This document shows, piece by piece, positions 5,795-60,471 of a stretch of 64,000 nt of DNA (position 1 is the stretch's first letter; each line of letters starts with the position of its first letter). Source of the stretch: Prochlorococcus marinus str. MIT 9515 (lineage in GTDB: Bacteria > Cyanobacteriota > Cyanobacteriia > PCC-6307 > Cyanobiaceae). A model generated the notes under the pieces. That model did no database searches. It saw only the letters and a program-made list of their open reading frames with translations, and had not been told where the DNA came from. The stretch is taken from contig NC_008817.1 of the NCBI RefSeq assembly GCF_000015665.1, forward strand, positions 1,364,001 through 1,428,000, read 5' to 3'. A program made the position numbers and the translations under genes.

Positions 5795-5950
5795 ATGGAT
5801 AAACAACATCTTGTAGATTTAATCTCCAGCAGTTTGATTAACGAAAGCCAAAATCTCAAATCAAGGGAAAGTTCTAGTGAAATAATAAATTATTTAAATA
5901 AATTAAATTTAGAGCAATTAAGAACCATGTCTAAAGAATTTATTCTCTAG
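5795..5950 (+). CDS. LVD/NYL-family micro-protein, 51 aa
   Basis: Preceded by AAGGAGTT, a good ribosome binding site. It aligns without gaps with the protein at 16104-16253 (minus strand): LVD near residue 6, ES near 17, SR near 23, NYL near 32, then QL and a KE end. The family looks like a two-helix soluble protein. Function is unknown; the duplication itself supports both as genes. Confidence 0.65.
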   Translation: MDKQHLVDLISSSLINESQNLKSRESSSEIINYLNKLNLEQLRTMSKEFIL

Positions 5951-16388: not shown

Positions 16389-16676
16389 TTAAGATTTTTG
16401 GTTGAGTTTTTTATGAGTCCCTAAAATTACTTTCTCTTGATATTGTTCGCATGAATGAGTCAAATGCTGACCATGCCAAATAAGTTTTTGATGGCAGTTG
16501 CAGCAGAGAATTGAACCACGACTTGCTTGACTGGAGTAATCAAATTTTGAGCAAGTAATACAGACATGACTACCTATCGATCTCGAATATGTTGGATCTT
16601 CAATATATTCCCATTTTTCATGAAGCTTACGATCCCTCTGAAATAACGAAAGCGCTGCGACTTTTTTTTCGACCAT
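16389..16676 (-). CDS. CITC-type small zinc protein, 95 aa
   Basis: ATG at 16676 (a longer TTG frame begins at 16682). The Cys/His-rich core runs CITC (39-42), CCNCHQKLI (58-66), then HGQHL and SCEQY. The paralogue at 40219-40449 shares CITC, CxxHQKLI, HL and the final C, so a CxxC + CxxH + C zinc site is likely. The first 30 residues (LSLFQRDRKLHEKWEYIEDP) are an extra charged arm lacking in the paralogue. A LexA-box-like palindrome stands 10 bp upstream, suggesting SOS control. The biochemical role is unknown. Confidence 0.7.
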   Translation of the reverse strand: MVEKKVAALSLFQRDRKLHEKWEYIEDPTYSRSIGSHVCITCSKFDYSSQASRGSILCCNCHQKLIWHGQHLTHSCEQYQEKVILGTHKKLNQKS

Positions 16677-16685
16677 CACCAAAGC

Positions 16686-16699
16686 AATACATTTGTACT
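16686..16699 (-). promoter_or_regulatory. LexA-box-like site before CITC zinc gene
   Basis: Reading the minus strand: AGTACAAATGTATT, compared with the cyanobacterial LexA consensus AGTAC-WNW-TGTACT; one mismatch, in the right half. It lies 10 bp upstream of the ATG at 16676. The paralogous gene at 40219 has a perfect match in the same place. Confidence 0.5.
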
Positions 16700-16912
16700 A
16701 CTATTCTTACCCTTCGTTAGGCGGATGTCAACTGCCGAGATGAAAAACTAGTGTTATCGCGGAACTCTACCAAACAAATCGTAATAAATATGATATGGCG
16801 CATATATGTAGCAAAACTGTCGCTTTTACAGCCAAAGCAGGCGGGATTTAGACTATTTATTTACAAAACTATATATATGTGTTATATTAATTAATATTAA
16901 TTATTTTCAAAA

Positions 16913-30347: not shown

Positions 30348-30487
30348 ATTATTCCTGGGACGATTTGGCCTGTTGAAATATAAGCACCAACTAAAGCTAT
30401 AACACCTACGAGAGCAAATCTTCCATTAAGTTTTTCTGCACTTGTCTTTTGTGGATCAATGTTCCTTTTTTGATTTTGATTTTCCAT
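30344..30487 (-). CDS. hli: High-light-inducible protein (Hli), 47 aa
   Basis: Polar start (ENQNQKRNIDPQKTS) then AEKLNGRFALVGVIALVGAY and ISTGQIVPGII. The Hli helix is complete. It follows the other minus-strand hli gene (30487-30603) with a one-base TAATG overlap, exactly as in the 16913/17020 pair. Confidence 0.92.
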   Translation of the reverse strand: MENQNQKRNIDPQKTSAEKLNGRFALVGVIALVGAYISTGQIVPGII

Positions 30488-39532: not shown

Positions 39533-40195
39533 AAATTTTCAAATCTTTTGTTACTTTAAACAAAATAAGAATAGAGAGCAAGGCAACTTGGATAGTAAAT
39601 AATTTATTATGGCAATTGAAATGTCAGATTATTAGGGAATATTTTTTGTAAATGGATACTCCCAAAGCAAACGCCCTACGATTATTTAGTAATAAGCAAT
39701 TGGATATTAACGAGGTCAAAACAATTCCGAAAACAATAAAATAAATCACTTTTGGGGTTTAAATATACACGCGGCACGGATTTACCCCCATGCCGCCCCA
39801 CCGAAAACTACACAGACATAACTAACAACCAAAACTTAAAAAATGGACAGAACACAACAAATTAAATATGCTCAGCCTTAGCTTTCCTCTGACAAAGTAG
39901 TGAAGGCTATTTTCTATCGTCATGGGGGGGGGTTCAATATGTACAGAGAACCTTTAAAGAGACAAGTTTGAGAGCTCGAAAGAAGCTTTTAAGCGTCTTC
40001 AATCAAAAGTATGAAAGCATTTAAAACTTTTCTTGAGAACGTTCTTGCCGAATACTACAACGGTGCTGATAAGTACTGTAATCAGATAAAAGTAATCAAA
40101 AATGCATAAATGAAAAGATGGCACAAAGCAAAAGAAATCTTACAAAAAAGTAAATAAGTTTGTTGACCTTTAACCTTTAACGATGATATATATAT
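39533..40195. other. Gene-poor stretch with GC-rich hairpin, G9 run and decayed frame
   Basis: GC-rich hairpin GCGGCA...TGCCGC (39771-39776 with 39791-39796) stands out from the AT-rich surroundings. A run of nine G lies at 39924-39932. From 39939 a frame continues through two stops to 40109 (MYREPLKRQV, then KAFKTFLENVLAEYYNGADK), looking like a dead gene. No intact gene was seen. Confidence 0.4.
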
Positions 40196-40209
40196 AGTAC
40201 TTTTGTACT
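40196..40209 (+). promoter_or_regulatory. LexA box, perfect consensus match
   Basis: AGTACTTTTGTACT fits the cyanobacterial LexA consensus AGTAC-WNW-TGTACT at every position and lies in a larger palindrome TAGTAC-TTTT-GTACTA (40195-40210), 9 bp before the ATG at 40219. Binding here would block both transcription and the ribosome site region. Confidence 0.65.
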
Positions 40210-40218
40210 ATAAAAGTT

Positions 40219-40449
40219 ATGGATGACTGGCAAGAATGGGGCTACTTCGATCACCACGGAGAGTTAAAAAGCAAGCGTACAAAGATTTGCATTACTTGCT
40301 CTTATTTTCGCTATAGCACTACAGATCAATGTGTAATTATTCTGACTTGTCCCTTTCATCAGAAACTTATCCCTCAAGGAGATCACTTAATTAAGGGGTG
40401 CAGATACTGGAGAAAAGACAGTCGGATATTTGCTCTAGAAGCCGCTTAA
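40219..40449 (+). CDS. CITC-type small zinc protein, 76 aa
   Basis: Cys/His core: CITC (24-27), CPFHQKLI (44-51), GDHL (54-57) and Cys61 in KGCRYW; probable zinc site CxxC + CxxH + C. It is paralogous to 16389-16676 (VCITCSKFDYS versus ICITCSYFRYS). The short N-terminus has acidic/aromatic residues (DDWQEWGYFDHH). A perfect LexA box 9 bp upstream predicts induction by DNA damage. Function is unknown; DNA repair or a checkpoint-like role is inference. Confidence 0.75.
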   Translation: MDDWQEWGYFDHHGELKSKRTKICITCSYFRYSTTDQCVIILTCPFHQKLIPQGDHLIKGCRYWRKDSRIFALEAA

Positions 40450-59520: not shown

Positions 59521-60471
59521 CTAGACTGCTGAACCTCCTACCACCTCTAAAATTTCCTGAGTTATTGCAGCTTGTCTTGCTTTGTTATAGGTAAGGTTTA
59601 AAGTACTTGCTAATTCTTTAGCATTATCACTTGCATTATTCATTGCAGTCATTCTGCAGGCAAGTTCTGATGCAGCAGACTCTTGAAGTGCTCTAAGAAT
59701 CTGATTCTGCAAGTACAAAGGTAATAAGGAATCCAATAACTGATCAGGGCTTTGTTCAAAAACGATATCAGAAGGCAATCTGTCTGATTCATTCTTTTCT
59801 AAATTAGATTTTTCAACTAGTAACTTACTATTTTTTGTAGTTAATCTAAAGATCTCATCATTTTCCTGTGCAATTCCTTGAGGGTCTAATGGCAGCAACG
59901 TTTGTACAACTGGAGCACAACTTACGAGAGTGATGAATTTGGTATAAATGATTTCTACCCTATCTGAGTTTTCTGATAAAAATTCCGCTAAAACCTCATT
60001 GGTTATTCCTTCAGAATCTATAGCTGTTGGGACTTGTTCTAGTTCTTTGAATGTACTTTTAATTACGTATTTATCCTTCCTATTTTGGAAGTAACCTATT
60101 GCTTTTTTCCCAACTAAAATCAAATTTGGTTCATAACCTTGTTTAATTAACTCTGCATACCTAATTTCTACCTTTTTAATTATGTTTGTATTATATCCAC
60201 CACATAAGCCTCGATCCGCAGTTATGCAAACCAAAGAAATTGATTTCACTTCTCTTTTGGATAAAAGTGGAGAGTCTACAGCCTCAAACTGGACCCTCGA
60301 TTGAATATTCTCTAAAACACGAGCAAGTTTGTCTGCAAAAGGTCTACTCTTGAGGACTTGATCTTGTGCTCTCCTAACCTTCGCAGCCGCAACCAATCTC
60401 ATGGCTTCTGTTATTTTTCTAGTATTTTTAACAGAAACAATTCGATCTCTAATTTCTTTAAGATTTGCCAT
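59521..60471 (-). CDS. atpG: ATP synthase F1 subunit gamma, 316 aa
   Basis: MANLKEIRDRIVSVKNTRKI and the C-terminal ASDNAKELASTLNLTYNKAR helix identify gamma. The insert of about 35 residues after residue 195 is the cyanobacterial/chloroplast-type insertion, without the redox cysteine pair of plants. It is the central shaft coupling F1 to the c-ring. Last gene of the atpE-F'-F-H-A-G cluster here. Confidence 0.95.
   Translation of the reverse strand: MANLKEIRDRIVSVKNTRKITEAMRLVAAAKVRRAQDQVLKSRPFADKLARVLENIQSRVQFEAVDSPLLSKREVKSISLVCITADRGLCGGYNTNIIKKVEIRYAELIKQGYEPNLILVGKKAIGYFQNRKDKYVIKSTFKELEQVPTAIDSEGITNEVLAEFLSENSDRVEIIYTKFITLVSCAPVVQTLLPLDPQGIAQENDEIFRLTTKNSKLLVEKSNLEKNESDRLPSDIVFEQSPDQLLDSLLPLYLQNQILRALQESAASELACRMTAMNNASDNAKELASTLNLTYNKARQAAITQEILEVVGGSAV

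Follow-up and report, generated by a model that had tools for sequence, protein, structure and literature searches.

The window considered here is a stretch of 64,000 nucleotides from Prochlorococcus marinus MIT 9515 (positions 1364001-1428000 of the 1,704,176-bp genome) that carries two copies of a gene for a small protein with four conserved cysteines. The main copy (40219..40449, plus strand) is an ORF for 76 amino acids in which alignment identified C24, C27, C44 and C61 as the family cysteines. Upstream lie a -35-like TTGACC (40163..40168, plus strand), a predicted -10-like TATATA (40187..40192, plus strand) after an 18-nt spacer, and the box AGTACTTTTGTACT (40196..40209, plus strand), a putative LexA operator at or just past the expected transcription start; orthologues have exact boxes in the same place. 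The original prediction had seen in it a full match to the cyanobacterial LexA consensus just before the gene and, in fact, it matches exactly the pattern that we searched (AGTACN4GTACT), with nine bases between the box and the ATG at 40219. Together with its flanks, it differs by one inner base from TAGTACA-N2-TGTACTA, the form of the box quoted in PMC2921402. The second copy (16389..16676, minus strand) is an ORF for a 95-amino-acid paralogue that aligns with all four cysteines retained, and the two window proteins share 37% identity across 62 residues (E 5e-12). It is preceded by a -35-like TTGACA (16726..16731, minus strand), a putative -10-like AAGAAT (16703..16708, minus strand) after a 17-nt spacer, and the box AGTACAAATGTATT (16686..16699, minus strand). 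The predicted site, read from 16699 to 16686 with a single mismatch, was found as described, but the gap to the ATG at 16676 is of nine bases and not ten.

The 64-kb window contains one exact site where 0.04 are expected (4 of 100 shuffled sequences have one) and three sites with at most one mismatch where 0.71 are expected (4 of 100 shuffles reach three). Sites with up to two mismatches, by contrast, are at chance level (16 observed, 14.75 expected), so that loose matches in the window are meaningless and were left unused. The third one-mismatch box, at 59712-59725 within a minus-strand ORF of 316 amino acids, is probably due to chance. The window also encodes the cyanobacterial RNA Yfr20 (Rfam RF02367; 19739-19827, plus strand).

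At the scale of the 1.70-Mb genome, exact boxes were found at two places, one at the main four-cysteine gene and one at recA. The latter, AGTACGCATGTACT, sits 81 nt ahead of recA and is identical to the P9515 recA box printed by Li 2010 (PMC3091678). There are 21 additional one-mismatch sites, which makes a total of 23 against 40 for the reversed-pattern control; since the control exceeds the pattern at one mismatch, weight can be given only to boxes that are exact or fixed in position. For this reason, the box of the second copy is unconvincing on its own, and what makes the case convincing is the fixed position of the box throughout the family. One-mismatch boxes also occur at 345960-345993 and 30358-30371 of the genome, 0-26 nt ahead of small uncharacterised ORFs, one of which has two of them.

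Nine single-contig Prochlorococcus genomes contain 17 exact boxes, distributed among recA (9), the four-cysteine family (6), a DUF3104-like gene (1) and a site where no gene was found (1); the reversed pattern gave two exact matches in all in the same genome set. DUF3104-type genes with a box at or near their start were seen in two genomes (L264, where the gene was named by likeness only, and L033:1220-1474). The lexA box GGTACAAATGTATT was present in the three genomes inspected, and the box of the MIT 9515 lexA gene is the one that Li 2010 (PMC3091678) prints for lexA of MED4. These observations bear on whether a different repressor might use a LexA-like palindrome at the family genes. LexA occupancy of the boxes is itself a prediction and, as described below, a phage-induced neighbour of the family (PMM0686) can be boxless. 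However, the same exact-arm sequence stands in front of recA in 9 of 9 genomes, lexA has a close variant of it, and such sites are assigned to LexA in the text of Li 2010 (PMC3091678), all of which makes another repressor very unlikely.

The four-cysteine family is widely distributed in a single lineage. It is present in 339 of 400 sampled Cyanobiaceae genomes, and a single-protein query had no match in 23 genomes from other families of the class. In a peptide-pattern scan of a genome collection, the best 80 of 112 confirmed stretches were all from Synechococcus, Prochlorococcus, Cyanobium or other cyanobacteria. The family appears, so far, to be known from picocyanobacteria alone. For box counts, we used 212 genes having at least 300 nt upstream, collected from profile hits and the peptide-pattern scan, both blind to the box; hits below 45 bits and those with less than 300 nt, or runs of N, upstream were dropped before counting, as were subsequently members more than 90% alike, which reduced the 212 genes to 92. 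The one exception to blind sampling among the 92 is a region (L034) fetched for its box, which was scored as a miss.

Boxes with no more than one mismatch occur within 110 nt upstream of 158 of the 212 genes (99 exact) and of 71 of the 92 members in the 90%-identity set (41 exact), counts that do not represent independent events, as family members overlap in lineage. The rate of boxes within these 110 nt exceeds that found between 110 and 1500 nt upstream 91-fold for up to one mismatch and 158-fold for exact boxes. Such a box is found before only 8 of 499 other ORFs with 60 or more amino acids in the same loci, a control set that excludes NVW/NVR-type DUF1651 genes as well as any gene that diverges from the family gene. 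Among the 21 misses, nine have a two-mismatch box within 110 nt (expected, 0.03 per gene), several of them in a Cyanobium-like group; six have a one-mismatch box 313-456 nt upstream, ahead of a co-directional DUF1651-like gene; and in three the box lies at some other place no more than 325 nt upstream, with the farthest, at 325, the least secure. The remaining three (L030, L121 and L172) have no box by any criterion used, although L030 is also downstream of a DUF1651-like gene. A box of some kind was hence recovered in 89 of 92 members. A general lack of the box among homologues had been named beforehand as the outcome that would speak against the prediction; we found the opposite, with 71 members of 92 boxed directly and 3 having none.

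The four inner bases of the box are variable, with 32 distinct cores among the 71 boxes, which points to selection. Comparison of the main gene with its orthologue in genome G015, which we take as MED4 (see below), gave a dN/dS of 0.06 with a dS of ~1.1. Purifying selection acts on the family protein and, at such a dS, identity of the upstream sequences can hardly be passive. Another possibility is that the boxes arose by chance or were passively inherited: in the window, loose matches do occur at chance level, but the 91-fold positional enrichment, the 32 cores and the 8 boxed ORFs in 499 controls contradict this explanation, which is hardly credible.

The sequence around the boxes resembles a promoter. 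Of the 71 non-redundant genes with a box, 50 have TTGAC in the 45 nt that precede it, and 38 have it at -25 or -24 relative to the start of the box; in this layout, a TAGTAC-like hexamer 17-18 nt past the -35 overlaps the first part of the box. The close relatives of the main gene have TTGAC at -33 or -34 and a TATA-like -10 before the box, which falls on the expected start site. Both layouts, as predicted, would suit a repressor. In 19 of 71 genes, 76-95 nt separate the box from the start codon as assigned.

The same arrangement was found in front of another group of genes, those encoding DUF1651 (PF07864). A search guided by neither family, for TTGAC-N20-box (one mismatch allowed) in ten genomes from two further genera that we take as Synechococcus, gave ten sites in five genomes and zero in the other five. 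Five of these sites precede members of the four-cysteine family and four precede DUF1651 genes above the Pfam cut-off; the tenth has a DUF3764 ORF 157 nt downstream. Similarly, a DUF1651 model built from five boxed members gave 13 genes scoring at least 145 bits, 12 of which carry a one-mismatch box whose distance to the ATG is 6-8 nt, whereas 1 of the 16 lower-scoring DUF1651 genes of the same list is boxed and 15 are not; this list is incomplete, as some DUF1651 loci known from another scan are absent from it. The remaining high scorer, from MED4, has its only one-mismatch site at -86 and a two-mismatch box 9 nt before the ATG. Tandem boxes whose starts are 17 nt apart precede DUF1651 genes of genome G023 (L048:3413-3443 and 5874-5904), the upstream one having two mismatches. 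DUF1651 proteins are thus like the four-cysteine family in their TTGAC and box operator, in being small picocyanobacterial proteins and in forming a joint operon with it in several genomes of the genus. They differ in that PF07864 did not turn up when 55 members of the four-cysteine family were scanned.

MIT 9515 has a third family copy, outside the window (384263-384493 of the genome, minus strand; L034:1764-1994), which is degenerate: its alignment lacks three of the four cysteines, its dN/dS is ~0.46 against the G015 operon copy, and it lies downstream of a boxed DUF1651 gene. A nuclease-like ORF similar to a PD-(D/E)XK gene of other loci adjoins it, and the vicinity of the third copy (L047:13796-17998) also includes a Vsr endonuclease and matches, in three genes, to A, B and C of PDC-M33, a candidate defence system. 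Other neighbourhoods provided comparable anecdotes, such as what appear to be a resolvase and type I restriction genes next to one family copy, PD-T4-9_A and PDC-S02 matches flanking a family gene and DUF1651 in an IMG/VR contig, and genes for an SRAP (SOS-response-associated peptidase) and a PD-(D/E)XK nuclease upstream of a family gene (L204:593-2146).

The idea of a defence island, and with it the PDC-M33/Vsr, PD-T4-9_A/PDC-S02 and resolvase/restriction anecdotes, was not borne out by a comparison of 20 family loci with 20 control regions. PADLOC reported six names (11 models) in the family loci, each model in 1 of 120 ORFs, and 34 models over 125 ORFs in the control regions, largely helicases and ATPases by name among the 25 listed. 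Since the control regions were richer in PADLOC matches, the comparison yields neither a positive nor a clean result. Long-ORF sequence is scarcer in the family loci, with 24,921 amino acids in ORFs of 110 amino acids or more against 38,221 in control regions of equal length. The two window proteins themselves had no PADLOC match. Six of the 92 loci have an SRAP-like cluster upstream, which in 5 of them is on the opposite strand, and six have an upstream PD-(D/E)XK-like cluster on the opposite strand, each cluster being named from one member; these are too few loci to provide a functional clue.

Published reports also suggest a link with phages. We take G015 as MED4 because its 6S and Cyano-1 RNA matches, which begin at 652620 and 654509, agree with the printed starts of Yfr7 and Yfr3 in MED4 (652625 and 654511), which PMM0684 and PMM0686 adjoin, respectively (PMC1242208). 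Between these RNAs, MED4 encodes a DUF1651 protein (652944), a 45-amino-acid ORF, the four-cysteine gene (653377-653607) and a 60-amino-acid ORF (654112) with weak ClpS likeness, below the Pfam cut-off. PMM0684 is a DUF1651 gene (PMC5490813) and PMED4_07401, 07421 and 07441 correspond to PMM0684, PMM0685 and PMM0686, all reported as phage-induced (PMC2518516); from the gene order between PMM0684 and PMM0686, the family gene at 653377 should be PMM0685. DUF1651 genes of three strains are described as phage-induced, with PMM0684 and PMM0819 named (PMC5490813). Interpolation between PMM0686 and PMM1027 places PMM0819 at ~778 kb, close to a boxed DUF1651 gene at 774456-774755, the next nearest DUF1651 gene (816590) being some 40 genes away. 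MED4 has six DUF1651 genes, of which two carry a one-mismatch box next to the ATG and one a two-mismatch box at that place; the other three have none.

It might be that the family acts chiefly in phage infection: induction in infected cells would be the reason for the retention of the box, the protein would promote or impede replication of phage DNA, and SOS would serve as the sensor only. The position of the family gene as PMM0685 within the induced PMM0684-PMM0686 group (PMC2518516) favours this possibility, as does the correspondence between the DUF1651 genes of MED4 boxed with at most one mismatch by the ATG and the two named as induced, PMM0684 and, by interpolation, PMM0819 (PMC5490813). 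On the other hand, the third such gene (1085062) has a rightly placed two-mismatch box and is unnamed among the induced genes, PMM0686 is the most phage-induced neighbour in MED4 and has no box, and PADLOC matches near the family are not above controls. Likewise, the protein P0001 had zero matches in 50,697 phage records, which led us to reject a phage origin of the family. Among 33 pattern matches in IMG/VR, one contig has a relative (L232, 2625-3209), boxed and with DUF1651 next to it, which we took as a putative picocyanobacterial island. On balance, a role in infection seems possible but rather doubtful; it is compatible with regulation by LexA, and the likelihoods that we attach to the two are not exclusive.

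The family proteins are small (mostly 75-95 amino acids) and their four cysteines are invariant in both sets taken for alignment (55 of 55 and 80 of 80 members), the 80 having been selected from the 92 and the omitted copies including truncated or broken ones and the third copy with three cysteines lost. The spacing C-x2-C-x16-C-x16-C occurs in 81 of 92 members (85 if extra-cysteine members are counted), F follows CxxC in 80 of 80 and W follows the last cysteine in 77 of 80. A C-terminal PExx tail is found in 63 of 92 members (e.g., L106:1949-2203) and a terminal A or G in 66 of 92; the tail might bind a partner or mark the protein for a protease. The cysteines could hold zinc or a 4Fe-4S cluster. 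Weak Pfam matches among 55 members comprised DUF7140 (10 of 55, best E 0.002) and the zinc-type zf-Tbcl_FmdE (3; E 0.35), zf-dskA_traR (1; E 0.048) and ZF-HD_dimer (1; E 0.2). PHROG 8162 matched 5 of 55 weakly (best E 0.0089), and a scan of two proteins against NCBIfam gave a weak match of P0002 to PRK07758 (E 0.04). The top match of the family profile among solved structures, a starch synthase (E 0.0041 over 39 residues), was deemed unlikely.

A more specific proposal is that of a 4Fe-4S protein with a HiPIP-like fold, acting as a redox protein or sensor. HiPIPs (PF01355) are similar to the family in size, in having four cysteines and in weak fold similarity, and the spacing of the first three is that of the Chromatium HiPIP (C-x2-C-x16-C-x13-C), from which the family differs in its last spacing (16 residues instead of 13). 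With two AlphaFold models (mean pLDDT 80 and 79), the rows listed by VIA-align were HiPIPs or small subunits of benzylsuccinate synthase in 8 of 10 cases for one model and in all 11 for the other, with Z from 3.0 to 4.1; these Z values are low, the tool warns that they may mean little, and many rows are near-identical HiPIPs. However, the best Foldseek E values for the two models were only 1.8 and 2.1, Pfam HIPIP matched 1 of 55 members (E 1.2), and profile comparison was non-significant (local E 0.019 to 0.075 with probability below 3%; global E 0.65 and 0.71), and HiPIP homology by profile was set aside; a HiPIP-like protein appears unlikely.

The original prediction of a conserved SOS-type box before diverged copies is thus borne out by the 71 boxed members of 92 and by a genome that encodes both lexA and a boxed recA. 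Because the box is conserved, has many cores and belongs to an operator common with DUF1651, control by LexA is very likely, and we predict that both window genes belong to the LexA (SOS) regulon, repressed in normal conditions and released upon DNA damage. Several observations count against this reading. Nine family members have two-mismatch boxes only, one-mismatch sites are no commoner than the reversed control and PMM0686 is boxless. In PCC9511, lexA expression is reported as nearly unchanged under UV (PMC2921402), whether Prochlorococcus uses the SOS repair system has been called unknown (PMC2955971), and mitomycin C raised 15 of 27 (CC9311) and 10 of 46 (WH8102) genes with earlier-predicted LexA boxes (PMC3744912). 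The same source describes a conserved gene without a name, SYNW1405/sync_1474, as highly induced by mitomycin C (PMC3744912).

Under LexA control, the promoter of an undamaged cell would be shut by LexA bound to the palindromic box over the -10 or the start site of the TTGAC promoter. Single-stranded DNA, coming from damage or from phage DNA replication, would load RecA, and self-cleavage of LexA would then open the promoter together with those of DUF1651 genes, which have the same operator and sometimes are in the same operon. The product would be a compact, probably metal-holding protein serving as an SOS effector. Instead of being an enzyme, such an effector would bind a protein of replication, repair or division; by analogy this is the most likely mode of action, but as a specific claim we hold it to be speculative. 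The small-protein gene is probably an unrecognised part of the DNA-damage response and perhaps part of the response to viruses.

Compared with the LexA (SOS) regulon described in marine cyanobacteria (recA, lexA, umuCD; Li 2010, Kolowrat 2010), the four-cysteine genes have the same operator near the gene start in the same genomes; unlike the known regulon members, they encode small proteins without known function and are not repair genes. The sections of Li 2010 (PMC3091678) that were consulted do not name the family, which its supplementary site tables may list, and the accessible portions of the literature on LexA/SOS, DUF1651 and cyanophages contained no description of the family or of DUF1651 as LexA-controlled. 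Cyanobacteria retain DUF1651 genes that may help phages, for reasons considered unclear and guessed to lie in a stress response (PMC5490813). The operator common to DUF1651 and the four-cysteine family makes both this retention and the use of SOS by Prochlorococcus directly testable, and the four-cysteine gene could be a compact DNA-damage reporter in very abundant marine phototrophs. As a tentative synthesis, plausible rather than probable, the four-cysteine family (possibly of HiPIP type) and DUF1651 would form a private picocyanobacterial SOS effector arm under one TTGAC and LexA-box operator, which would explain the rise of PMM0684, PMM0685 and PMM0819 as phages tripping a DNA-damage switch. 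Other phyla have SOS-induced small checkpoint proteins, such as SulA, YneA and SidA. The four-cysteine family resembles them in being small, restricted to a single lineage and, as predicted here, repressed by LexA.
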